A model generated the notes under the pieces. That model did not search any database, was not told the DNA's origin, and saw only the letters and a program-made list of their open reading frames with translations. The translations under genes were made by a program, and so were the position numbers. Positions 139-35,660 of a stretch of DNA of 35,697 nt are shown one piece after another; positions within the stretch are counted from its first letter, which is position 1, and each line of letters begins with the position of its first letter. The stretch is from a virus. The stretch spans positions 1 to 35,697 of IMG/VR virus record IMGVR_UViG_3300017987_000216; one strand, written 5' to 3'.

Positions 139-188
139 ACAGAACAGAACATGACCCAACATAACGGGACGGAACGGAACAGAACCGG
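139..188. repeat. 5-bp-phased AC repeat array
   Basis: The dinucleotide AC recurs every 5 bp from 139 to 184, giving ten successive pentamers such as ACAGA, ACATG, ACCCA, ACATA, ACGGG, ACGGA. The same 5-bp phase with ACGGT/ACGGA units occurs at 5046-5130 inside the initiator gene. Such phasing could reflect cooperative protein binding along the helix or simple slippage. No function is shown. Confidence 0.55.
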
Positions 189-285
189 GCCGCCCTGGTC
201 CGCACCGGGCCGGTTTTGTTTTCTTGTTCGCGCTAACAGAGGGCGCTTTGAATCGCGGCAAACGGGACACGGCGGCCGCACTTGT

Positions 286-332
286 ACGGAATCATAATCC
301 GCGTGTCGGGGGTTCGAGTCCCTCCACCGCTA
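286..332 (+). other. 3' half of a tRNA gene (CAU anticodon), probable attachment site
   Basis: The segment folds as the 3' half of a tRNA. It has an anticodon arm of four to five pairs around loop ATCATAA (anticodon CAU, so Met-type or Ile2-type), a 5-nt variable loop, a T arm GGGGG-TTCGAGT-CCCTC, then acceptor strand CACCGCT and discriminator A at 332. The standard spacing makes chance unlikely. The matching 5' acceptor strand (AGCGGTG) and a D arm are not found upstream, so this is not a complete gene. Phage integrases commonly use the anticodon-to-3'-end part of tRNA genes as attachment sites, and a tyrosine integrase lies 1.6 kb downstream. It is therefore best read as attP, or as one prophage att end. 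No second copy was noticed in the window. Confidence 0.65.
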
Positions 333-408: not shown

Positions 409-618
409 ATGGCAACGGACCGCGACAAGGAATTCCAGGCCATCCAGTTGCAGTTGATGTGCGTCATTGCTGGCAATCTCTCAGTGATCGCGAAAGCGAC
501 CGCCGCAACGTCGGACCGAGGAAGCCTAAGCGAAGAAGCAGAGAAAATATCGCAGGAAGGTTTCGCCGCCGCACTTCGCGCCCTGAATTGGTCACAAGAA
601 CACGACAACGAAGATTGA
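409..618 (+). CDS. Small hypothetical protein (69 aa)
   Basis: A 69-residue soluble protein with no family I recognise. It begins MATDRDKEFQ, is probably mostly helical (QAIQLQLMCVIAGNLSVIAK, then a Glu/Ala-rich second half) and ends in the acidic tail EHDNED. The ATG at 409 follows a purine-rich AAAGGCGAAG. The stop codon overlaps the ATG of the next small gene (TGATG at 616-620), which implies translational coupling. It is the first gene of the left, plus-strand early module. Its position, size and codon use support a real gene; its role is unknown. Confidence 0.55.
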   Translation: MATDRDKEFQAIQLQLMCVIAGNLSVIAKATAATSDRGSLSEEAEKISQEGFAAALRALNWSQEHDNED

Positions 619-746
619 TGGACACCAAAACGAACCCGAACAGCCGGCCGCTGTTCAGTAGTTGTTCGGCATGCGGACAGTCTATCCGCATACCGAACCG
701 GAAAAGGCCGAACCGTCAACGACTGACAACGCCAAACGATATTTGA
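618..746 (+). CDS. Tiny CxxC protein (42 aa)
   Basis: A 42-residue basic peptide coupled to the preceding gene by a TGATG overlap. Its centre reads CSACGQSIRIPNRKRP. A single CxxC knuckle followed by basic residues looks like half of a zinc ribbon and could bind metal as a dimer or bind nucleic acid. Only one Cys pair is visible, so metal binding is an inference. The short length limits confidence, but the exact stop/start overlap supports translation. Confidence 0.4.
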   Translation: MDTKTNPNSRPLFSSCSACGQSIRIPNRKRPNRQRLTTPNDI

Positions 747-799
747 CGGCCGCAGAATGGTCTGCAGTCGTGTTCAGTATTTCAGGTAGAGGCTGAATC

Positions 800-1231
800 G
801 TGTCTGAACAGATGCCAGTCCGACCAAATCCGAAACCGCTGTTGCTTGGCTGTCTATTGCCTGTTTGCCTGGCGGTTGGTGGTTGCTGGTTCTTCTTGCC
901 TGCAAAACCCAACGAACCGCCAGCGGAATATGGCACAGCTTCGCAAGCTGAAAAGGACAATCGAAGCAAGCAAATCACCGATCTGAAGACGAACGGCGTT
1001 TTGCTGAAATTCACAATCAGTACAAACCGCCGCAGTGCAGAACTGTTTGTGTTGCCGCCGTTCAAACTGCTGAACATCGACGAGAAGGCCGCAATTCTCC
1101 GTTTGTCCTACTTCCACATTTTCCAATTGTCAGAGCGGGTCACTAGCTACCCCGCTGAATTGTTTGTCCTGGACGGAATCAACGGCGAGTGGATCGACAC
1201 CGTAGACATCGATCGCCGTGGGTTTCACTGA
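800..1231 (+). CDS. Membrane-anchored or lipoprotein-like hypothetical protein (143 aa)
   Basis: The protein has a short basic N-terminus, one hydrophobic stretch (about residues 14-34) ending AVGGCWFF, and a soluble remainder of about 105 residues. The VGGC could be a loose lipobox at Cys29; otherwise it is a single membrane anchor with the rest outside the inner membrane. The domain after the anchor (FTISTNRRSAELFVLPPF onward) is not one I recognise. The chosen start is GTG 800, preceded by AGAGG; ATG 812 is an alternative. In temperate phages an envelope protein beside the repressor often alters the lysogen surface or excludes other phages. That role is only a positional suggestion here. 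Confidence 0.55.
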   Translation: MSEQMPVRPNPKPLLLGCLLPVCLAVGGCWFFLPAKPNEPPAEYGTASQAEKDNRSKQITDLKTNGVLLKFTISTNRRSAELFVLPPFKLLNIDEKAAILRLSYFHIFQLSERVTSYPAELFVLDGINGEWIDTVDIDRRGFH

Positions 1232-1265
1232 CGCCCAACCTTCCGCACTTTCAACAAACTTCCTT

Positions 1266-1283
1266 CGTACAGTATTGCATACG
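1266..1283. promoter_or_regulatory. Putative operator O1 over the XRE gene's ribosome binding site
   Basis: The 18-mer CGTACAGTATTGCATACG has self-complementary CGTA/TACG ends and abuts the GGAG ribosome binding site of the XRE gene. It matches about 14 of 18 bases of the arms of the inverted pair at 1538-1581. Three related copies bracketing an HTH gene are what an autorepressor's operators look like. Binding is inferred. Confidence 0.5.
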
Positions 1284-1294
1284 GAGCTAAAACA

Positions 1295-1525
1295 GTGAAA
1301 CATACCGCCATGAAGCGATTTATTGACAACGTGAAGACGATCATGGAATCACGCGGCCTAACTGTTCAAGAGGTTGCAGACTCCTGCGGAATGCGCCGCC
1401 CAAACCTCAGCGTCATATTGAACGGACGCGAAGGCGTAACGCTCGATCGTGCTGAGCGCATTGCCGAAGCACTCGACGTCGATCTGTCGGATTTGATTAG
1501 CAAACACCCGCTTGTCACCAGTTGA
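1295..1525 (+). CDS. XRE/Cro-CI family transcriptional regulator (76 aa)
   Basis: A single-domain helix-turn-helix DNA-binding protein. The pattern IMESRGLTVQEVADSCGMRRPNLSVILNGREGVTLDRAERIAEALDVDLSDLI matches the five-helix Cro/CI fold almost end to end, with the recognition helix at about MRRPNLSVILNG. At 76 residues it is nearly all HTH and lacks a CI-type peptidase or dimerisation domain, so it is closer to Cro or C-proteins. GTG 1295 follows GGAG; ATG 1310 is an alternative. A putative operator sits on its ribosome binding site and an inverted pair of similar sites lies just after its stop. It probably represses itself and perhaps the downstream integrase. Confidence 0.85.
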   Translation: MKHTAMKRFIDNVKTIMESRGLTVQEVADSCGMRRPNLSVILNGREGVTLDRAERIAEALDVDLSDLISKHPLVTS

Positions 1526-1537
1526 TCGAAAAAATAC

Positions 1538-1581
1538 CGTACTGAATCCCATACGCGGGTTGACGTATGGCATTCAGTACG
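1538..1581. promoter_or_regulatory. Inverted pair of operator-like 18-mers
   Basis: CGTACTGAATCCCATACG (1538-1555) and CGTATGGCATTCAGTACG (1564-1581) are inverted repeats with one mismatch in 18 bp and an 8-base spacer. Each arm resembles the site at 1266-1283. As RNA it would be a strong hairpin, but no U-run follows, which argues for a DNA-binding site rather than a terminator. TTGACG at 1560-1565 could be a -35 box buried in the pair, with only a weak -10. Confidence 0.55.
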
Positions 1582-1616
1582 CCACACTCCGCCCCCGCTG
1601 GCGGATTGATTCAACG

Positions 1617-1653
1617 CAGGCCGTCAGCTGAACCAGCTGGCGGCCTGTTTGCG
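1617..1653 (+). terminator. Rho-independent terminator-like hairpin
   Basis: CAGGCCGTCAGCTG (1617-1630) pairs with CAGCTGGCGGCCTG (1634-1647) across a 3-base loop. All 14 pairs form with one G-U. TTTGCGTTT follows. It would end transcripts coming from the XRE gene before the integrase leader. Confidence 0.6.
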
Positions 1654-1926
1654 TTTGCGATCACCGCCGCCAGCGTTGCGACGGAGTCGAAAGCGTGAAC
1701 CAGTCCAGGAAGCACAAACCGCACGACCAGCACCACCCGCAAAGTCAGCGGGCGGCCCACGGGAGTCGCGTTGCGTTCCATATTGGTCAGCGCTGTAAAC
1801 CGCTTACGGGTCCACAATTGGCCCGGCAGTGTGGAAAAACACTTTCCGCACGGATGCCCCGGGGACGACGCCCCCGGGTTGTTTGGGCACGACTGGCCCG
1901 GCCGTACCGTCAGAAAGGACTACGCC

Positions 1927-3090
1927 ATGATCGATTTCACGCAACAAGCGACCGCAGCCAGTTCCCTGAGCGAATTCTACGACTGGATTCAGCCCGAACT
2001 GCAGGCCCTGAACGCCGCCAAAACGCTCACCGCACACCGGGAATTTCTCAGCCACTGGATTCGCACCACCGGCGACCCGCCCCTGAATCAGATCAGTCGG
2101 GACGATTTGCAGATGTTCCGCGACGGGTTGCTGAACGGTACCTGGCAGAACAAACGCGGCCAAACGGTCAACGGCGTTTCGCCCCGCACGTTTCAGAAGC
2201 ACCACGGCACCTATCGGCAGTTGATGAAAGCGGCGCAGACTGTCGGCCTGATCGAATCGGTGCCGCAATTGTTCGTCACTCGCAAATCGGCGTTGACGCC
2301 CAGCGAAGCGGCCACCACGACCAAACCCGTTCGCGACATCATCGGGCCGGAAGAAATGCGGCGACTGTACCACGGGGCCGCGTTGTCGACTTGGCCGCTG
2401 AGATACCCGTCGGTGAATCCGCCGATACGAGGCCGACGATTCGGGCCGGACGAACGCGTGTTGCGTTGGCGAGCGGCTATCTATTTCGGCTGGTTGTACG
2501 GCGTTCGAATCAGCGACGCCTGCACATTGTCGGCCGACTGTTTCGACTTCACGCCACACGAACACGCGCCGCACGGCATGCTGGTATTCGCCCCGTGGAA
2601 AATTCGGCGCAAAGGCCGGTTGCAGGGTTTGCCACTGACCGCCACGGCCGCCGCGTTGGTCCGACGAATCACGCGCGGCCCGCGTTGCTTGTTCTGGTTC
2701 CTGCACGAAAACCGGGCCGGTTGCTGGAACAGCAGAAGGAAACGCTGGGAAAGCGGACATATCAAAGCGCTGCAGCTCGAAATCTGCGCGTCGCAGGGAA
2801 TCATCCCGACCACCGGGCCGAAGTCGCTCACACGTTCCGTCAAACAGCGGCGCGACGCGTTGCCCGGTTTGACGTACCACGTTTTCCGGCAGACGGCTGT
2901 CACTCAGTACAACGATTTTGCCACCAGCAGCGGCAGAGCGTTGGGCGACTATATCGTCGGGCATTCGTCTGGCACGGTCGCCGGCGAATCGTACGACAAG
3001 CCAGACGCGGCTGTTTGGCGAGCCATCGAAGCCCGCGACCGCGACCAGTTGCCGGAATGCTGGCGCGGACTGTTTGCCAATTTGAACTAA
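1927..3090 (+). CDS. int: Tyrosine recombinase / phage integrase (387 aa)
   Basis: Site-specific recombinase expected to integrate and excise the phage at its attachment site. The C-terminal catalytic domain shows the full residue set: Arg194 in LYGVRISDACTL, His318 and Arg321 in HVFRQTA, His346 in VGHSSG, and nucleophile Tyr356 in GESYDK, ten residues after His346. The N-terminal 120-150 residues fit a SAM-like core-binding domain (KTLTAHREFLSHWIRTT, then FQKHHGTYRQLMKAAQ). ATG 1927 is chosen because AGAAAGGA precedes it by 8 nt. The frame is open upstream, but that part reads as GC-rich leader. It is the likely partner of the tRNA-half attachment site at 286-332. The alternative is the second recombinase at 6858. 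Confidence 0.9.
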   Translation: MIDFTQQATAASSLSEFYDWIQPELQALNAAKTLTAHREFLSHWIRTTGDPPLNQISRDDLQMFRDGLLNGTWQNKRGQTVNGVSPRTFQKHHGTYRQLMKAAQTVGLIESVPQLFVTRKSALTPSEAATTTKPVRDIIGPEEMRRLYHGAALSTWPLRYPSVNPPIRGRRFGPDERVLRWRAAIYFGWLYGVRISDACTLSADCFDFTPHEHAPHGMLVFAPWKIRRKGRLQGLPLTATAAALVRRITRGPRCLFWFLHENRAGCWNSRRKRWESGHIKALQLEICASQGIIPTTGPKSLTRSVKQRRDALPGLTYHVFRQTAVTQYNDFATSSGRALGDYIVGHSSGTVAGESYDKPDAAVWRAIEARDRDQLPECWRGLFANLN

Positions 3091-4519: not shown

Positions 4520-5644
4520 ATGGAACCGGACGACCTGACCGCCGACTGGTTTGATTCGCATGTGCTGAGCGTCGCGAAATTCGACAGCGTGTTTATCAAA
4601 TCCGACTCGCGCAAAATCATGTCGAGAGACAAACAACTGCCGTGGGTATCGCTTCCCACCGGGTTCGAATCGCGTGGATACAATGACCTGGTCGATTCGT
4701 TTGATTGTTGGAAAGCGCAGGCTATTGGTAACTGTTTCAACGCGTTCGTCAATATGTCCACCAACCCGCCCGACTACGGTCAGTTGTCGCACAGCAACGG
4801 AGAACCGTTCAGCCTGTCGTATATGTGCCGTCGAGCCCAATTGGTGCCCGACTTGATTCAGCAAACGGTCGCCTGGGCGGTCAAAGCCGGATGGTTGATT
4901 GTCACGCCGGTCCTGTCCACAGCTGACGAAACGAGTCATCCCGACAGCGCCCCGACAGCGCCCCGACACCATCCCGACAGCGCCCCGACACCATCCCGAC
5001 ACCATCCCGACAGCGCCCCGACACCATCCCGACACCATCCCGCCTACGGTACGGTACGGTACGATACGATACACAACGGTACGGTACGGAACGGTACGGT
5101 ACGAGGAGAACCGAACCGAACCGAACCGAACGATTGTTTTGAGTCTCTCATCAGTCAGTCAGACAAGCTGCAGAAGCTGCAGTCGGTCACGCTCGACCCC
5201 GGGACGGCGAAACCGTTCGTTGGAAGCTGCGTGGCTGGCTTCACGACATCGGACGTGACGGACCGCGACAACGACTACTGGCTGACCTGGTACCGCAGAC
5301 AAACCGTTTCCGATTCGCCGATTCTGTCCGGCCGCAATCGGGCCGAACTGGCAATCGTGCTGGCGTTACTATCGGCGGTGCGCCGCCGAAAATGCAAAAC
5401 GACGAAGGTCGCGACGTTCGTCTATCAGCTCACACACGACAAAATCGGCATGATCAGCGAAAGCGACATCGAACGGGCCGTCGCGGCCGTGTCGAAACTG
5501 CTGGACGCCGCCCCGCCACCGGCCGCCCCACCCCAACCCCCGCCGTCGGCCAGCCGTCTACCCGAACCGACGGCCACAGCAAACGCCGGCCCCACGTTCG
5601 CGGAACGGCGAGCCCGACGCAGGAAACGAAAGGCGACCGCATGA
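4520..5644 (+). CDS. Putative replication initiator (lambda O-like arrangement) with internal iterons
   Basis: A protein of about 374 residues in three parts. The N-terminal 125 or so residues look like a winged-helix domain (LPWVSLPTGFESRGYNDLVDSF, a helical stretch, then QTVAWAVKAGWLIVTPV), as in phage primosome or initiator proteins. Then comes a low-complexity insert whose DNA is the repeat array 4940-5130, translating as repeats of HPDSAPTPSRH. A second helical domain follows (DNDYWLTWYRRQTV onward) and finally a Pro-rich, basic tail. Lambda O likewise carries origin iterons in the middle of its gene, so this is probably the initiator with the origin inside it. Family assignment is by architecture only. 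ATG 4520 follows CCCGAAAGGAA; ATG 4481, with AGGA and an ATGA overlap, is a good alternative that adds 13 residues. No helicase loader was seen nearby. Confidence 0.6.
   Translation: MEPDDLTADWFDSHVLSVAKFDSVFIKSDSRKIMSRDKQLPWVSLPTGFESRGYNDLVDSFDCWKAQAIGNCFNAFVNMSTNPPDYGQLSHSNGEPFSLSYMCRRAQLVPDLIQQTVAWAVKAGWLIVTPVLSTADETSHPDSAPTAPRHHPDSAPTPSRHHPDSAPTPSRHHPAYGTVRYDTIHNGTVRNGTVRGEPNRTEPNDCFESLISQSDKLQKLQSVTLDPGTAKPFVGSCVAGFTTSDVTDRDNDYWLTWYRRQTVSDSPILSGRNRAELAIVLALLSAVRRRKCKTTKVATFVYQLTHDKIGMISESDIERAVAAVSKLLDAAPPPAAPPQPPPSASRLPEPTATANAGPTFAERRARRRKRKATA
4940..5038. repeat. Nine tandem 11-bp iterons (candidate replication origin)
   Basis: Nine head-to-tail copies of CCCGACASCRY lie without gaps from 4940 to 5038. 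They alternate between CCCGACAGCGC (copies 1, 2, 4, 7) and CCCGACACCAT (copies 3, 5, 6, 8, 9). Eleven bp is close to one helical turn, so bound proteins would line one face of the DNA. Three units make 33 bp, so the repeat also encodes an 11-residue repeat in the initiator. This fits initiator-binding iterons inside the initiator gene. Confidence 0.75.
5046..5130. repeat. 5-bp-phased ACGGT/CCGAA array next to the iterons
   Basis: Seventeen pentamers run in register from 5046. Seven are ACGGT, with single-base or two-base variants (ACGAT, ACGGA, ACACA, ACGAG, GAGAA), and the last four are CCGAA. The array directly follows the 11-bp iterons and is the least GC-rich part of this stretch. It could be the strand-opening part of the origin or a second binding array. 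A similar 5-bp phase occurs at 139-188. Confidence 0.7.
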
Positions 5645-6857: not shown

Positions 6858-7847
6858 GTGGCTTTGAATTCTCAGCTTCTCGATCAGATCGGCGTCGTTT
6901 GCCGGCGCAAAGGACGGGCGCGCAGCACCTACAAAACGTACCGCCATTGGTGCGAACAGTATCTGCGCTGGCTTCGCAAACCCGACGGCACATGGACGCA
7001 TCCCAAAGACACGGCCGAACCGGAAGTGACCGGCTGGCTGACCGAACTGGCCAACCGCCGGAACGTGTCGCCCACGTCTCAAAATGTCGCCTTTCAGTCC
7101 GTGCTGTTCCTGTTTCGCGAAGTGATCGGCCGCGAATTGCACAACGTCCAGGCATTGCGAGCGAAACGGCCGCAACGAATCCCGACCGTGCTGTCCGTGC
7201 CGGAAGTCTCGCGACTGCTGGCAGAACTCAAAGGACGCGACCGCATTATCGGCCAGTTGCTGTACGGCTGCGGTATGCGCATCGGGGAAGCCGTTAGCCT
7301 GCGAATCAAAGATATCGACACAGACAGCCGACAGATTGTGATTCGCCAGGCCAAAGGAGCAAAGGACCGCGCCGTCGGCATGCCGTCCGCATTGCAGGAA
7401 CCATTGACGCACCAAATCGAAACCGCCGCCGCGTTGCATCGGCAGGACGTCGACGCCGGAACCAATCGCGTCGAACTGCCCTACAGTTACGGCCGCAAGT
7501 CGCCGACCGCCGCCGGTTCGCTGGCGTGGTTCTGGCTGTTCCCCAGTCATAAACTCAGCCGCCACCCCGTCGAGAAATGGATCGGACGCTATCACATTGA
7601 CAAAGGGAATTTCGCGCGTTCGATGAGACTGGCTGGACGGCGGGCCGGCATTCACAAACACTGCAACACGCATTGCCTGCGGCACAGCTACGCGACGCAT
7701 TCATTGAATCAGGGCGTCGACATTCGCAGCCTGCAGAAGTTGCTCGGACACAACGACGTCCGCACGACCATGATCTACACGCACGTTGAACTGGCAGGAG
7801 CCACCAGCGAACAAAGCCCGCTCGATCGGCTCCCCAACGCATCATAG
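6858..7847 (+). CDS. Integron-integrase-like tyrosine recombinase (329 aa)
   Basis: Second tyrosine recombinase, closer to the XerC/IntI group. Catalytic residues are visible: Arg141 in GCGMRIGEAVSL, His272 and Arg275 in HCLRHSYATH, His298 in LLGHNDV and Tyr307 in TTMIYTHV. Between the boxes it has an insertion with LAWFWLFPSHKLSRHPVEKWIGRYHID, like the extra region that marks IntI proteins (WQWVFPS... RRHH). The N-terminal 90 residues fit a core-binding domain (STYKTYRHWCEQYLRWLR). The GTG start at 6858 follows GCGAAAGGG. No attC-like cassette array was seen beside it. It may be a second integration or excision enzyme, a dimer resolvase, or a captured IntI. The gene is convergent with the late operon. 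Confidence 0.88.
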   Translation: MALNSQLLDQIGVVCRRKGRARSTYKTYRHWCEQYLRWLRKPDGTWTHPKDTAEPEVTGWLTELANRRNVSPTSQNVAFQSVLFLFREVIGRELHNVQALRAKRPQRIPTVLSVPEVSRLLAELKGRDRIIGQLLYGCGMRIGEAVSLRIKDIDTDSRQIVIRQAKGAKDRAVGMPSALQEPLTHQIETAAALHRQDVDAGTNRVELPYSYGRKSPTAAGSLAWFWLFPSHKLSRHPVEKWIGRYHIDKGNFARSMRLAGRRAGIHKHCNTHCLRHSYATHSLNQGVDIRSLQKLLGHNDVRTTMIYTHVELAGATSEQSPLDRLPNAS

Positions 7848-12838: not shown

Positions 12839-13218
12839 GGTTTCGCCTTTCCGTAGTTTACGCGTTGATTCCAGTCTTCCTGGCGTTCGGGGCAGCCGCA
12901 ATCTTCGCCGACCACCGCCTGCACGCGTTCTTTCGTGATGCCCACGGCCGCCAGTCCTTTCGCCACCGTGTCGCCCAGTCCGCGAGACACCACAGGAGCG
13001 GCCGCCTGCGGTTCCCAGCGGTGCGGGCATTCGCTGCAGACGTGCAGCTGCTGGCCCACGGCCCCCGCGTCGATCCCCGGGTTACCCGACAGGATCGCCG
13101 CGAACGATTCCACCGTCGGCGTGCAGGCCGCCGCCGGCACCGCCTGGCAATCGCATGCGAACACCGGCTGGCAACAGCTGGTCGATTCGCCCCGAAATTT
13201 GCACGCGTTATCCGTCAT
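12835..13218 (-). CDS. Cys-rich small protein of the tail module (127 aa)
   Basis: ATG 13218 is set by GGAGGCGTTTTG upstream and a TGATG overlap with the preceding gene's stop. The protein has many Cys: CCQPVFACDC near the N-terminus, CSECPHRW in the middle and CGCPE near the end, arranged as metal-binding knuckles. Another section (LGDTVAKGLAAVGITKERVQAVVGEDCGC) resembles a short helical repeat. It follows three large Cys-rich paralogues, so disulphide- or metal-rich proteins form a block here. Function is unknown; a structural role in the tail tip is the simplest reading. Confidence 0.65.
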   Translation of the reverse strand: MTDNACKFRGESTSCCQPVFACDCQAVPAAACTPTVESFAAILSGNPGIDAGAVGQQLHVCSECPHRWEPQAAAPVVSRGLGDTVAKGLAAVGITKERVQAVVGEDCGCPERQEDWNQRVNYGKAKP

Positions 13219-14411
13219 CAAAACGCCTCCAGAGTGAATTGATACGTGCCGCCGCCGGCATAGTTCACAATCTGCACGTTCGCACCGAACGGCGTGAAGT
13301 CGGCGTCGGCCCATTCCGCAACCGGCGCATAGGTTTCGGTACAGGGGGCACGGTAAGGCAGGTTCCCCACGTTCCCACAACCGAAACCGACTGTCGCCGA
13401 ATACCAGATGCGCCACAATTTCGTGTCAGGGCAAAACTTCAACTGATACTCACCTGCCTGGCAGTCAGCAAAACGCCATTCACAGGGATACGTCCCGTAA
13501 TACTCCAGAACGCCCGTGTCGTCGAAGAACCCCTGACCCGTGTCGATATCCTGTTCCGTGAATCGCCAGCGGAGCGGCAGTACGTCGCTGTGCTGCGACC
13601 CCCCAAAACAATTCGACACCAGATAACGGCGCGCAGGAGTCAAACAAACTTCCTCCCCGCAAATCGTGCAGGCCCGGTCGTGGATCGGCGTTGCCCCTTC
13701 GTCGATGTCGAACCGTTGAGCGCACCAGCGGTCAGCATCGAACGCGTTTCGAGTGTAACGGGCGACCATGCCTTCGACCGAATGTTCGGCCGTCAACACG
13801 CCGCCGGGCGTCAGCGACCACGACAACGTGCTTTCGTCTCCACAGTCGACCGCGTCGCTCGTCCATTCATCCGCGTCGGGGTCGCGTGTGAGAACCCCAG
13901 CGCCGGTCCCGCAGCACGACAACGATGGCCCGGCCAGTTGGTACGTCACGGGTTCCAGTCCATCGCCCCAGTCGTACGCCGGCCAGTCGTCGGATTCGTA
14001 ACAGCCGCAGCACGTCGACGCCGGCGTGCCGCTGCTGGTCGTGTCGGTCGAACTGCCGGTGCCCGGCTGCAGCACCACCAGCCCCAGATTCCCCACGATT
14101 TCCGCGAACAGCCGCGTCGGTTCGTCGCCGCTGCCGGCCGCAATCGCCGCCGCCGTGATCTTCCGCACGTCCACGGGTTGCACAAACGCCCATTCGCTGC
14201 CGTTCCACGTCACTTGCCGGGCGGCGTGCGGTTTGTAGTCGTCTTCCGGCAGGTCGGTCAGCAGTTCCACCACCACACCCCGGGCGGCCGTCGCATCATC
14301 CCGCTGGCCCGCCGTCCCGCCGCTCACCGTGCCCAGCACGATGCCCGTCGCTTTGTTGATATCCCGCGCTTGCTCCCGCCCGAAACCGTAAACCGTGTTA
14401 TCGTTCGTCAT
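13218..14411 (-). CDS. Cys-rich tail-associated paralogue C (397 aa)
   Basis: Third of three tandem paralogues in transcription order. The N-terminal about 105 residues are nearly shared with the other two (YGFGREQARDINKATGIVLGTV, RKITAAAIAAGSGDEPTRLF). Then come a Thr/Ser-rich linker and CCGCYE, where the conserved Cys-rich part begins. The C-terminal 200 residues are divergent (WRFTEQDIDTGQGFFDDTG...). The N-terminal part is probably the virion-anchoring piece and the C-terminal part a variable exposed domain, as in duplicated adsorption or tail-tip proteins. No family name can be given. Stop/ATG overlap with the next gene shows coupling. Confidence 0.7.
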   Translation of the reverse strand: MTNDNTVYGFGREQARDINKATGIVLGTVSGGTAGQRDDATAARGVVVELLTDLPEDDYKPHAARQVTWNGSEWAFVQPVDVRKITAAAIAAGSGDEPTRLFAEIVGNLGLVVLQPGTGSSTDTTSSGTPASTCCGCYESDDWPAYDWGDGLEPVTYQLAGPSLSCCGTGAGVLTRDPDADEWTSDAVDCGDESTLSWSLTPGGVLTAEHSVEGMVARYTRNAFDADRWCAQRFDIDEGATPIHDRACTICGEEVCLTPARRYLVSNCFGGSQHSDVLPLRWRFTEQDIDTGQGFFDDTGVLEYYGTYPCEWRFADCQAGEYQLKFCPDTKLWRIWYSATVGFGCGNVGNLPYRAPCTETYAPVAEWADADFTPFGANVQIVNYAGGGTYQFTLEAF

Positions 14412-15740
14412 TCAACCGCCCCCCAGAAACACGGGAACAATTGTCACCGCACCGCCAAACGTCGTGGCGGGCGGTCCGAACCCGTCCGGGTCGGAAATGA
14501 CAGAATGCGAATAACCCAGCTGCAGCGGGTTGTCGGTTTCAACACAGGGATACTGGCCGACAGCGTAGGCCGTGTTCGTGAAGAAGTGCCGCGCATAGCC
14601 GTTTTCGTAACTGTATTTGAACACCACGGACAATTCGCTGAAGTCCACGATTTGCATCGCGTCGTTCACTTTGCCCAGGTACAGCGCCGCATGAAACGGC
14701 CCCGTGAAAATGTTGATTGGCGTCGCAAACTGCCCGGTGTTGTGGTCCCAAACAACGTCATAATGATTCAACGGGTCCTTCCGGCACCCAGCACCGGGCA
14801 AACCCTGAGACGCCACCAGCGTCGTGCCGTTGAAAAATTCGGCCGCCGGCCCGTTCGCCCCGCTATACCGTAACTCATACGCCCCCGAATGTTCCAGATT
14901 CACGCAGGCCGGACACCCGAACAGCGTCTGCGGTTCCCCGTTCGCCGGGACGACGCAGACTTCGGGCGCACAAACCACGCAGTCGCGGCCGTGTCGCGGC
15001 GTCGTGCTTTCGTCCAGTAGAAACCGCTGAGCGCAAAGACTGTCCAACGCGTCCGGCGCGACCGTGTACCGTGCCAGCAGTCCGTCGGTCTGATGTGTGA
15101 TCGTCAGCACGCCGTCGGGCGTCAGCCTCCAATCGGTCAGCCCGTGGTCAACATCGCCCACGTTGATACACGCCACGTCGGACGCGACCCAGTCGCCCGC
15201 GTCCAGTTCCTGCCGTTCCAGAATCGGATTCGTCACAAGGGAACAGCATTCGAGAGACACGCCGGAAACACTGCGCAGATACGGCTGGCCGGAATACGTT
15301 TGGTAGTCGGTTTCTTCGTAGCAGCCACAACAGCCCGTCGTCACCGTCGCACCCGGCGCGTCGGTCGTGGTCGTGGTCGTTTCCCCGGCGGGCGGTTGGC
15401 TGACCACCAGCCCCAGATTCCCCACAGGATTCGCGAACAGCCGCGTCGGGTCGTCGGCGCTGCCGGCCGCAATCGCCGCCGCCGTGATCTTCCGCACGTC
15501 CACGGGTTGCACAAACGCCCATTCGCTGCCGTTCCAGTTCACCTGCCGGGCGGCGTGCGGTTTGTAATCGTCGGCCGGCAGCTCCGTAATCAGTTCCACC
15601 ACAATCGAACGCGCCGCCGTGGCCGTTTCCCGCACCCCCGCACGACCCCCGCCGACCGTGCCCAGCACGATGCCCGTCGCTTTGCTGATATCCCGCGCTT
15701 GCTCCAGCCCGAAACCGTACGCCGTGTTGCTGTCAGTCAT
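14412..15740 (-). CDS. Cys-rich tail-associated paralogue B (442 aa)
   Basis: Second paralogue, with the same N-terminal domain (YGFGLEQARDISKATGIVLGTV, NGSEWAFVQPVDVRKITAAAIAAGS), a Thr-rich linker (ETTTTTTDAPG) and CCGCYEE. Paired Cys positions similar to the neighbours follow (CVVCAPEVC, LFGCPACVNLEHSGAYELRYSG). The C-terminal domain differs (YLGKVNDAMQIVDFSELSVVF onward). The block GCPACVNL...YELRYSG-NGPAAEFFNGTTLV is shared with copy A (GCQICTDN...YEVVVSGMDGPVADYFNGATLV), so A and B are closer to each other than to C. The late position suggests an exposed tail component. Confidence 0.7.
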   Translation of the reverse strand: MTDSNTAYGFGLEQARDISKATGIVLGTVGGGRAGVRETATAARSIVVELITELPADDYKPHAARQVNWNGSEWAFVQPVDVRKITAAAIAAGSADDPTRLFANPVGNLGLVVSQPPAGETTTTTTDAPGATVTTGCCGCYEETDYQTYSGQPYLRSVSGVSLECCSLVTNPILERQELDAGDWVASDVACINVGDVDHGLTDWRLTPDGVLTITHQTDGLLARYTVAPDALDSLCAQRFLLDESTTPRHGRDCVVCAPEVCVVPANGEPQTLFGCPACVNLEHSGAYELRYSGANGPAAEFFNGTTLVASQGLPGAGCRKDPLNHYDVVWDHNTGQFATPINIFTGPFHAALYLGKVNDAMQIVDFSELSVVFKYSYENGYARHFFTNTAYAVGQYPCVETDNPLQLGYSHSVISDPDGFGPPATTFGGAVTIVPVFLGGG

Positions 15741-17065
15741 GCGTCCAGCCCCACGCTAACGGGTCGAAGGATCACCGAATCCGGGAACGTCGTCGGCGGC
15801 GGAGTCGGGTTTGTCGGCTGGTTGTTGGCAATCGCCGTCAGCGGAAATTCGATTTCGTCGGCCAGACACGGATGTTCCGTGCCCATGAACAGTTGATAGC
15901 TGGCTTCCATTAAATTCGAAAACCCGGTCGCGTGGTATGTATACGTGAGATATACAGCCATGTTGGCCTGGCCGCCGTTGCCCGTGCCGTTCAGAGCCAT
16001 CCAGATGTGCCCCCCAAACTGCGGCGAAACGACTTCAAAGTCGATAATGTCTGGGTCTGGGTTGACGTAGTGAACGACTGAACGCGGCACGTACGGAAAC
16101 CGCCGGCATTCGTAATACCCCTGACCGCCCAATAACTGCGTTACCAACGTGGCCCCGTTGAAATAATCAGCGACCGGCCCGTCCATTCCACTGACAACCA
16201 CCTCATACGCTTTCGCCGCCTGGTTGTCTGTGCAGATCTGACACCCGGAAACAATTTCCGGCGGGTCGTCCAGCGGGTACGGCGTCACGCACGCCTGCTC
16301 GCCACAAACCACACAATCGCGACGCAACGCGGCGGCCGTGCGGTCGAACCGCAAATTGCAAAACAGGTCGACGCCCGCGTCGTACGTGTTGCGATCAAAC
16401 TGGGCGACCTGGCCGAATTCCGAATGTGTGGCCGTCAGCGTTTCAACGCCCGGGTCCAGTTGCCACAGAATCGTAGCCCCGTCTGCACAGCCCTGCACAG
16501 CTTCCCACTGCACACCGTTCGGAATCGCCCGCTGCAGGTCCAGATATCCCGCTTCGTTGGCGCAACACGCCAACGAAACCCCGGACACGCGAAACACGCG
16601 AGGCAGGTTTTCGCCGTCGTAGTTGTAATAGTTGACCGTTTCCGGGTCGTTACACCCGCAACAGTCCCCGGATGTGCCACCGATCACCGTGGTCGACGGT
16701 TCGCCCGCCGGTTCGCCCACACACCACCCCAGATTCGCAATCGGTCGAGCTTTCAGCCGCGTCGGGTCGTCGGCGCTGCCGGCCGCAATCGCCGCCGCCG
16801 TGATCTTCCGCACCGGAACCGGACGCGTCGACACCGGCACCCATTCGCTGCCGTTCCACGTCACTTGCCGGGCGTCGTGCAGTTCGTAATCGTCGGCCGG
16901 GAGCTCCGCCAGCAGTTCCACCACAATCGAACGCGCCGCCGTGGCCGTTTCCCGCACCCCCGCACGCCCCCCGCCGACCGTGCCCAGTACGATGCCCGTC
17001 GCTTTGTTGATATCCCGCGCTTGCTCCAGCCCGAAACCGTACGCCGTGTTGCTGTCGCCCGTCAT
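15737..17065 (-). CDS. Cys-rich tail-associated paralogue A (442 aa)
   Basis: First of the three in transcription order. Its stop overlaps the start of copy B by 4 nt. It shares the N-terminal domain (SNTAYGFGLEQARDINKATG... RKITAAAIAAGSADDPTRLKARPIANLGW), then a short linker and CCGCND. The paired-Cys section CVVCGEQAC/CQICTDNQ matches copy B. The C-terminal domain (IWMALNGTGNGGQANMAVYLTYTYHATGF) is beta-rich. A 38-bp stretch encoding part of the shared domain is identical in all three copies (16776-16813, 15460-15497, 14131-14168), which points to recent duplication or gene conversion. The function in the virion is not known. Confidence 0.7.
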   Translation of the reverse strand: MTGDSNTAYGFGLEQARDINKATGIVLGTVGGGRAGVRETATAARSIVVELLAELPADDYELHDARQVTWNGSEWVPVSTRPVPVRKITAAAIAAGSADDPTRLKARPIANLGWCVGEPAGEPSTTVIGGTSGDCCGCNDPETVNYYNYDGENLPRVFRVSGVSLACCANEAGYLDLQRAIPNGVQWEAVQGCADGATILWQLDPGVETLTATHSEFGQVAQFDRNTYDAGVDLFCNLRFDRTAAALRRDCVVCGEQACVTPYPLDDPPEIVSGCQICTDNQAAKAYEVVVSGMDGPVADYFNGATLVTQLLGGQGYYECRRFPYVPRSVVHYVNPDPDIIDFEVVSPQFGGHIWMALNGTGNGGQANMAVYLTYTYHATGFSNLMEASYQLFMGTEHPCLADEIEFPLTAIANNQPTNPTPPPTTFPDSVILRPVSVGLDA

Positions 17066-31404: not shown

Positions 31405-33141
31405 TCAGTCGTCCCAGATGCCGGGGCGAGGTTCATTTTGTGGTCGAGTCGCCACGCGGCGGCCCCGTATCAATTCACCGGCCAGGTGTTCAATCTGTTT
31501 CACGACATCCACAATTCCGGGCCGGTCCGATTTGTAGGTTGCCGCCATCCGCCGCAGCGCTTCTTTGTACGCTTCGCCGGTCGTGTCCGTGTCCTGGACG
31601 ATGTAATGGTTTTCCGTCGTGCGGCGAGGTTCGTCCGGAAGTCGCACCACCGTTTCGACGGGCGGCGGACCCGCTGACAGGTCCCGCCGCCGTCGTTTTC
31701 GTTCACGCCAGCGCCCCAACAGGAACCCGGCCACCGACAACGCGAGCGAACCGGGAATCGCAATTTCAGGGGCAGCAATCGCCAGCGTCAGGCGAGCCAA
31801 ACGGCCCGCCCATGACACGCCCCTGGAACGTGCGGCGGCGCTTTCGTCGCCTGCGTTAGTCGATTCGCTGCTGCTCGCCGGCGGCGGCGGTTGTGCCGTT
31901 TGTTCCGGGGCGTCGAGTTCCGCCGCCTGTTTCGATTGTTGCAGTTGTTCCAGTTGCCCCGCCAGTTCCCGCGCCCGTTGTTCGGCCGCCGTGGCTCGCT
32001 GTTCCATTTCCGCCAGCCGCTGGTCGATTTCCGCCCCAGCGTCGGGCGGTTCCGGAACCCGCGCGGGCGCTGGCACCGGCTCGGCCTGGCGGTCGCCACT
32101 GCCGGCCGACGACACCAACGCCACGAGATCGGCATACAACCGGCGGCGGTCCGTGAATCCCTGCACCGTGTCGGATTGTCCCCGCCATTCCACCACGAAT
32201 GCCGGGTAGCCCGTCACGTTCCGTTCGTCGCACCAGTGCCGATGGCTTGGCCCGTCGACGTGTTTGATGCAGAATCGCCGCTCCAACGCCGCTCGAAATC
32301 GATCGTCGGTCGAAAACGCCTGGTCGAACGCGCGACAGCGACCGCACCACGTCGCCCCGACCACGTACAACGTCGGACGGTCGCACGTTGGCACGGTGGG
32401 GCGGTCAACGTCCGACGGAGTCGCACGCGAAACCACCCACCTGCGAAAATCCCGCTCGACGTCGATCAGGCCCGTGCCGTAATGTTGGCGAAAGACGGAG
32501 TCCCAGCCGCCCTGTTGTGCCGTCTGCAGCAGTTGCACAAATTGTTCGGGCCCCGACTGCTGCACCAGATATTCGGTCAGGCCGTAGCCTTCCGCGTAGA
32601 AATCCAGCGTGGCCCCCGCTCCGGTGGGATAATCCCGGGCGGCCGTCAAACTCGACAGCGGAATATAACGGCCGCCGCTCACCACACGCCGCAGGCGGTC
32701 CCAGTACAGCTGTTTTTCGGCCCGGTGTTCGCACAGCGTGGCCGCGCCTTCGTCCGCCCAACGTGGCACCGGCTGCCGAAAATGGCTGGCGAAAATCGTG
32801 TGATTCACTTCGTGCGGGATCACCGAATCCAGAATGCGTTGTTCGGTCCCGCGAACATTCATGCCCACGATATGCACCGTTCGGCCCACAAACGCGAAAT
32901 TCGTGGAACCGCTGGCACCCATCGACCCGACCGTGACCTGAATCGAACACGGACGCGACCAGTGCGGCAGCGTTTTCCCCAGCCAGTACACGGCCAGCCG
33001 TTCGCGCTGGTTTTCAGCCGCTTCCGCCACCGCGCGAGCGTCCGCCGCCGTCGTCGCCGTCGCCGCAAAATTGCGAGTCGAAAACGTGGCACCGTCGGCC
33101 ACGCCGACCAGCACGAACAGACACAACATCACGTTTCGCAT
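31405..33141 (-). CDS. Secreted/membrane metallopeptidase-thioredoxin fusion (578 aa)
   Basis: ATG 33141 follows GCGAAAGG. Parts in order: a signal peptide (MRNVMLCLFVLVGVADG, about 1-18); a gluzincin-type zinc peptidase domain with HEVNH (His110, Glu111, His114) and WADEG (Glu131, likely third zinc ligand); a thioredoxin-like domain with ATWCGRC (Cys266, Cys269) and GYPAFVV (cis-Pro loop); a Gln/Glu-rich coiled coil (about 365-410); a hydrophobic stretch (about 450-478, EIAIPGSLALSVAGFLLG); a basic, then polar tail. If the N-terminal half is exported, the peptidase and thioredoxin face outside and the basic tail faces the cytoplasm. Both active sites look intact. Similar peptidase domains occur in planctomycetes. 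A role in crossing or remodelling the envelope at lysis or infection is inferred from location next to the nuclease and NlpC/P60-like genes. Confidence 0.82.
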   Translation of the reverse strand: MRNVMLCLFVLVGVADGATFSTRNFAATATTAADARAVAEAAENQRERLAVYWLGKTLPHWSRPCSIQVTVGSMGASGSTNFAFVGRTVHIVGMNVRGTEQRILDSVIPHEVNHTIFASHFRQPVPRWADEGAATLCEHRAEKQLYWDRLRRVVSGGRYIPLSSLTAARDYPTGAGATLDFYAEGYGLTEYLVQQSGPEQFVQLLQTAQQGGWDSVFRQHYGTGLIDVERDFRRWVVSRATPSDVDRPTVPTCDRPTLYVVGATWCGRCRAFDQAFSTDDRFRAALERRFCIKHVDGPSHRHWCDERNVTGYPAFVVEWRGQSDTVQGFTDRRRLYADLVALVSSAGSGDRQAEPVPAPARVPEPPDAGAEIDQRLAEMEQRATAAEQRARELAGQLEQLQQSKQAAELDAPEQTAQPPPPASSSESTNAGDESAAARSRGVSWAGRLARLTLAIAAPEIAIPGSLALSVAGFLLGRWRERKRRRRDLSAGPPPVETVVRLPDEPRRTTENHYIVQDTDTTGEAYKEALRRMAATYKSDRPGIVDVVKQIEHLAGELIRGRRVATRPQNEPRPGIWDD

Positions 33142-33311
33142 ACGCAACGGCCTTTCGCTTTGCACACTTTCCATTTCCGCCCGCTGCCGCAGCCACACAG
33201 CCGGTTGCGGGCCGACCGAATCGGTTTGGTCACCGGCACGCCCGCGAAAATGCCCGCGAACCGCGACGGTTTCTCAGCGGCCGCCGGCCCGCGTTTCAAT
33301 CGTTTCGACAT
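33129..33311 (-). CDS. Small SEC-C-motif-like zinc protein (60 aa)
   Basis: A 60-residue basic peptide ending in a SEC-C-like zinc motif: LCGCGSGRKWKVCKAKGRCVC. The usual SEC-C pattern is CxCGSGxKxKxC(C/H). Here Cys39, Cys41 and Cys50 fit, but the fourth ligand after Cys50 is Lys. Cys56 or Cys58 may take its place. SEC-C motifs bind zinc and mediate contacts (as at the SecA C-terminus with SecB). Its 3' end overlaps the start of the metallopeptidase gene by 13 nt. Real translation is supported by the motif and codon use. Confidence 0.65.
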   Translation of the reverse strand: MSKRLKRGPAAAEKPSRFAGIFAGVPVTKPIRSARNRLCGCGSGRKWKVCKAKGRCVCET

Positions 33312-35620: not shown

Positions 35621-35660
35621 GTTACCCGCAGTTACCCGCAGTTACCCGCAGTTACCCGGG
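35621..35660. repeat. Tandem 10-bp repeats GTTACCCGCA
   Basis: Three perfect copies of GTTACCCGCA (35621-35650) and a fourth, GTTACCCGGG (35651-35660), are in direct tandem. The 10-bp period is one helical turn, as in operator or iteron arrays. Confidence 0.75.

Follow-up and report, generated by a model that had tools for sequence, protein, structure and literature searches.

Ordered repeat arrays within a probable replication initiator gene of an uncultured temperate phage suggest an embedded origin

Introduction

Two adjoining arrays of direct repeats, built of 11-bp and 5-bp units, lie in the middle of an early gene of the viral record IMGVR_UViG_3300017987_000216, and the question arises as to whether they mark an origin of replication embedded in the gene of its own initiator. 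Origins located in initiator genes are known from a few model phages. The window, i.e., the whole stretch of DNA that was analysed, comprises 35,697 bases, and its genes fit a temperate tailed phage. The structural genes include those of a lambda-type portal (PF05136), a major capsid protein, a head protease and a gpA-type large terminase; the window also encodes a Cro/CI-type HTH protein and two tyrosine recombinases. An earlier note on this DNA had proposed that the gene encodes an initiator and harbours the origin, and comparative evidence makes this the best reading. Judged from the sequence, the gene is likely to encode an initiator and to contain the origin, in which the iterons would bind the initiator and the short array would serve for opening or loading.

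Results

General features of the window

The features discussed below are listed in Table 1. One of the two tyrosine recombinases is of the integron type, with 41–44% identity to integron integrases, including IntI1 and IntI3, which is unusual in a phage. The 3′ end of a tRNA or tmRNA located ahead of the recombinase genes is likely to be the attachment site. Three similar adjoining genes with cysteine-rich stretches probably encode duplicated structural or adhesion proteins, and one further gene combines two dissimilar domains in a single phage protein.

Table 1. Positions of the features in the window; protein parts are given in residues.
Feature	Position	Strand	Details
Second pentamer array	139–187	+	Non-coding, NAC-phased, ~10 units, phase as in the gene
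tRNA or tmRNA 3′ end	307–324, probably ~280–332	+	T-arm; weak Rfam tmRNA match
Second tyrosine recombinase	1927–3090		
Probable replication initiator gene, early	4520–5644	+	ATG ORF, ‘gaaagga’ RBS, 374 codons
Protein, N-terminal part	residues 1–136		
Protein, repeat linker	residues 140–204		
Protein, C-terminal part	residues 205–374		
Iteron array	4937–5042	+	Nine gapless 11-bp units (4937–5035) and a partial tenth to 5042
Short array, first part	5045–5103	+	TACGG-type pentamers, single phase
Short array, second part	5108–5131	+	GAACC pentamers, 4.8 copies
Low-stability segment, candidate opening region	5132–5181	.	Directly after the arrays
Integron-type tyrosine recombinase	6858–7847	+	
Three similar adjoining genes	13218–17065	−	CCGCYE-type stretches
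Phage protein gene	31405–33198	−	Peptidase MA-like and thioredoxin-like domains
10-bp tandem repeat	35621–35658	+	GTTACCCGCA x3.8, right end

Repeat arrays inside the gene

The 11-bp and pentamer repeats are real. The earlier note had described nine gapless 11-bp copies followed by about 17 pentamers in the middle of the gene, and the coordinates, the TRF analysis and the shuffle scores all agree with this description. Lag scores in the gene are 42 for the 5-bp period, 54.5 for the 11-bp period and 65.5 for the 33-bp period, while the maxima found in 200 codon-block shuffles over the whole window were 13.5 and 12 for the 5-bp and 11-bp periods, respectively. The 11-mers are of two kinds, CATCCCGACAS and CGCCCCGACAS, and TRF resolves the iteron array into 9.4 copies of an 11-bp period and also into a higher-order unit of 33 bp, present in 3.2 copies with 95% identity. 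The 33-bp period translates as the 11-residue protein repeat HHPDSAPTPSR; the DNA repeats do, as was claimed, set a repeat in the protein. The ~17 pentamers of the short array share one phase, with an imperfect junction between the TACGG-type and GAACC parts.

The direct repeats occupy coding sequence between two protein parts of one early gene, and a region of low stability is present, weakly, beside the iterons on the C-terminal side. The nearest-neighbour stability of the segment following the arrays falls in the lowest 1.3% of the genome's 50-bp windows, which is a weak effect, and the GC content in the 60 bp 3′ of the arrays is 0.50 versus 0.60 for the gene. Two observations count against the reading of the gene as an initiator with an embedded origin: the GC content of the pentamers (0.56) is only slightly lower than that of the gene, and GC skew gives no clear signal at the array site.

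Repeats of this kind might also have arisen by recent slippage in a tolerant linker, being functionless and marking no origin. The near-identity of the 3.2 copies of the 33-bp unit suggests recent duplication; linkers show disorder and little constraint, and codon usage is poorer in the repeats than in the rest of the gene.

The second pentamer array is relevant here. The pattern (ACNNN)x8 occurs at two sites only in the window, 139–185 and 5046–5102, both on the plus strand, and was not matched in 100 shuffles. The only 5-bp array scoring at least 11 outside the gene in the whole window is found at 164–185. Pentamers of this phase are thus also present outside coding sequence, which slippage in a protein linker leaves unexplained; the phase is a feature of the DNA, not of the protein. 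By analogy, the array may be a candidate second origin-like site. A search with a position matrix revealed no significant second iteron cluster outside the gene; scattered iteron-like words are present at ~43–94. If the contig ends join, the 10-bp tandem repeats of the right end would precede the second pentamer array.

The encoded protein and its neighbours

Close homologues of the protein were found neither in IMG/VR (searched with the whole gene, the N-terminal part and the C-terminal part) nor in INPHARED, PLSDB and the fetched loci. Pfam, PHROG, phmmer and hhalign comparisons of the protein yielded no match, and neither of its halves could be matched to the initiator families compared; both results count against the initiator and origin reading. 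In particular, Lin1244_N, HTH_36, DUF1376 and Phage_rep_org_N gave no profile, phmmer or hhalign match in the N-terminal part, and the DnaT/gpO-like C-terminal domain (alignment A2; FWxxYPxKxGKxxAxxAW...TWLNxxRWEDE) is absent, with an hhalign probability of 0.3%. A likeness of the N-terminal part to the protein of locus L211 (hhalign E 0.045, probability 1.2%) was dropped, as BLASTP did not confirm it.

The apparent winged-helix N-terminal domain of the earlier note found no backing in these profile, phmmer and hhalign searches. Both AlphaFold predictions have a pLDDT of 37–38; the predicted order of elements (H63–81, H99–105, H110–122 and a strand) is compatible with a winged helix and carries no weight at that confidence.

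Among the neighbouring genes tested, none was recognised as a helicase or loader of the DnaB, DnaC or DnaI type, which also counts against an initiator with its origin, and such a neighbour is not obligatory, as none is present beside the Renna12 initiator. Genome scans with the portal and with a terminase alignment yielded no host relative, and an integrase scan yielded no relative of the early region.

The lack of a homologue and of a recognised helicase gene alongside would suit a different protein, namely an early DNA-binding regulator or a partition-type protein, whose operator or centromere site would be formed by the repeats; centromere-like sites are also iteron arrays. However, the genes tested included none recognisable as ParA- or ParM-like, and the two-array layout occurs chiefly inside initiator genes, as described below, so that a regulator or partition protein is regarded as very unlikely.

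Repeats in phage initiator genes

The gene-first sample consisted of 72 non-redundant initiator genes from INPHARED and IMG/VR. Nearly all were chosen by their C-terminal domain because selection by repeats was to be avoided; two members, L008 and L016, were derived from the repeat scans. The controls were 233 other ORFs of at least 180 aa from the same loci, and significance was set at the 1% codon-shuffle level. Significant direct repeats were detected in 63 of the 72 initiators and in 14 of the 233 control ORFs (Fisher 3e-41), and short arrays with a period of 5, 6 or 7 bp in 41/72 and 2/233, respectively. The sample leans to Pseudomonas-type C-terminal domains and only near-duplicates were removed before counting, so kinship may inflate these counts.

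Both types of array are present in 17 genes, and the long-period array comes first in all 17. None of 360 shuffled genes contained either array above the threshold. Long periods were 10, 11, 21 or 22 bp in 27 of 39 cases, near multiples of the helical turn. The short period was 5 bp in 15 genes, 6 bp in 17 and 7 bp in 9. As 6- and 7-bp arrays are also common, the proposal of the earlier note that 5 bp corresponds to half a helical turn lacks general support. The short array usually ends ~10–15 codons before the C-terminal domain, and its GC content is below that of its own gene in 93% of cases, with a mean gap of 16 points. The N-terminal domains, which include HTH_36, DUF1376 and Lin1244_N, form many groups unlinked at BLASTP 1e-4, and the layout is therefore not confined to a single domain family.

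The two-array layout is found chiefly within initiator genes, with one control ORF as an exception. Of 14 whole phage records, 11 have their strongest array with a period of 5, 6, 7, 10, 11, 21 or 22 bp in the initiator; among the 10 records that were picked regardless of repeats, the number is 7. It is because the two-array linker is elsewhere specific to initiator genes that the window gene is assigned a probable initiator function. We infer that its product would act as an initiator and bind the 11-bp units, and that the short array would serve in opening or loading. As to relatives keeping repeats with different units, for which the earlier note suggested a search, no homologue of the window protein was found; the same layout with unrelated units is present in other phage initiators.

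Search by repeats

In IMG/VR, exact matches to TACGGx5 were retrieved from a single locus, L008. Its array is located inside a gene matching a PHROG replication initiation protein (phrog_1408, 2e-13); longer iterons precede the array and a DnaB helicase gene lies directly downstream. A relaxed scan for TACNNx6 found at least 120 loci, many of them intergenic. Among the matches listed, arrays in credible genes of at least 200 aa were mostly in initiator genes: the array ORFs of L016, L038, L066, L073, L074/L084 and L082 match initiator or replisome-organiser PHROGs (weakly for L082, 0.0012), and those of L089, L102, L105 and L127 are initiator-like by reading. The array-spanning ORF of L072 (at least 200 aa) had no match, and the array ORFs of L042, L063 and L096 look spurious.

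Two of the loci have peculiarities of their own. The initiator-like gene of L102 (3361–4482, minus strand) contains an apparent HNH-type insertion between its N-terminal part and the pentamer linker. In L092, a TACNN array lies at the 5′ end of an MCM-like helicase frame (438–2555, minus strand), before the likely start codon; origins of archaeal viruses may likewise be marked by pentamer arrays.

Selection on DNA and on protein

Synonymous-codon identity, calculated in 12-codon windows, peaks in or beside the array in three initiator families, reaching 0.97, 0.96 and 0.87; the immediate flanks of the arrays are raised too. Elsewhere in these families, it is roughly 0.35–0.81, 0.49–0.86 and 0.40–0.78, respectively. 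This peak is unexplained by slippage, as are the initiator-specific recurrence of the repeats, their unrelated units and their single order; functionless expansion is therefore considered highly improbable.

The same data bear on the suggestion that selection acts on the peptides encoded by the repeats, e.g., because they form a proline-rich docking segment, a suggestion to which the 11-residue repeat encoded by the 33-bp period lends some support. Yet in 36 of the 63 initiators with significant repeats, the period (5, 7, 10, 11 or 22 bp) is not a multiple of three, so that all frames are read, and the peptides encoded by the arrays differ completely between phages. Together with the constraint on synonymous sites, this makes selection of the peptides extremely unlikely.

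Discussion

The preferred reading, that of an initiator gene with an embedded origin, suggests the following mechanism. The 11-bp iterons would align initiator molecules along one helix face. Strand opening and the positioning of the helicase or its loader would take place at the 5-bp array and the less stable segment that follows it on the C-terminal side. The repeat-encoded part of the protein would be a tolerant flexible linker and, owing to this tolerance, the DNA sequence would be free for selection as DNA. One stretch of DNA can thus be both a protein–DNA recognition site and a disordered protein linker.

The arrays may also represent a general, unnamed design of tailed-phage origins, in which helix-phased iterons in the initiator linker (10–11 or 21–22 bp) are always followed, in the direction of the C-terminal domain, by a short array with a period of 5, 6 or 7 bp as an element of its own; the chances of this are put at somewhat less than even. 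In such a design, the sequence of the short array would be freely replaced between phages with its phasing kept, and some phages would have a second copy of the short array in non-coding DNA. The short array might, e.g., set the register of a protein filament that assembles on the strand once opened, a role comparable to that of the DnaA-trio. A DnaT-like filament setting a 5-nt register was considered and dropped, since DnaT binds 2 nt, and DnaA and RecA 3 nt, per subunit (PMC4132743). The question raised is what reads the 5–7-bp register, and whether it is read in double- or single-stranded DNA.

The novelty seen by the earlier note in repeats that set the initiator's own linker does not hold, as such repeats are already known from the O protein of Stx phages (PMC7466680). 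What does seem undescribed is the ordered two-array rule; no description of it was found in the openly readable literature searched, and an earlier description is possible. The two-array signature would locate origins and initiators in uncultured phages that, as here, have no recognisable replication gene.

Comparison with known systems

In lambda and Stx phages, as proposed for the window, iterons are located in the middle of the initiator gene (O), with the opening region toward the C-terminus. The lambda/Stx origin differs in that its iterons, four to six in number, are 18 bp long and separated by spacers, and in that its opening region is A-rich. In lambda O, the iterons are followed by an A-rich stretch without a strong short-period array, which counts against the proposed origin. 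Extra iterons of Stx phages lengthen O by 13 residues (PMC7466680).

The bacterial oriC contains a short phased motif beside the initiator boxes, the DnaA-trio or DnaD element, which is recognised in its single-stranded form as the origin opens (PMC10201434, PMC5043065). The short array of phages is similar in being a short phased motif beside putative initiator sites; the oriC elements differ in that they are 3-nt or TnnT motifs, are non-coding and are read by DnaA or DnaD.

Origins within initiator genes are known in phages SPP1, TP901-1 and Tuc2009 (PMC6316719, PMC8965321). SPP1 has an origin with direct repeats in gene 38 and a second similar site elsewhere (oriL, oriR) (PMC6316719). Compared by description only, its intragenic initiator origin and its second site resemble those proposed for the window, where the non-coding pentamer array might be the second site.

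The lactococcal phages provide the closest parallels in layout. Direct repeats within the genes of Tuc2009 Rep and TP901-1 ORF13 were reported to be bound by the respective gene products and to function as origins (PMC8965321), and the database record of Tuc2009 carries the note ‘contains origin of replication’. TP901-1 has two arrays with a 15-bp period. No protein homology of the window gene to the r1t and Tuc2009 replisome organisers was detectable in the searches made, the repeat units differ and the lactococcal hosts are AT-rich. The genes of these organisers (r1t ORF11 and Tuc2009 Rep2009) nevertheless share the layout of the window gene, with a 5-bp-phased array directly after the iterons: 22/11-bp units (CAACCA) and then AGGAT and AGGTT pentamers in Tuc2009 rep, 11-bp units (GGAACC) and then AGATA and AGAAT pentamers in r1t orf11. 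As far as sequence comparison can tell, the same long-then-short order is shared by many unrelated phages, among them lactococcal ones with an experimentally mapped origin.
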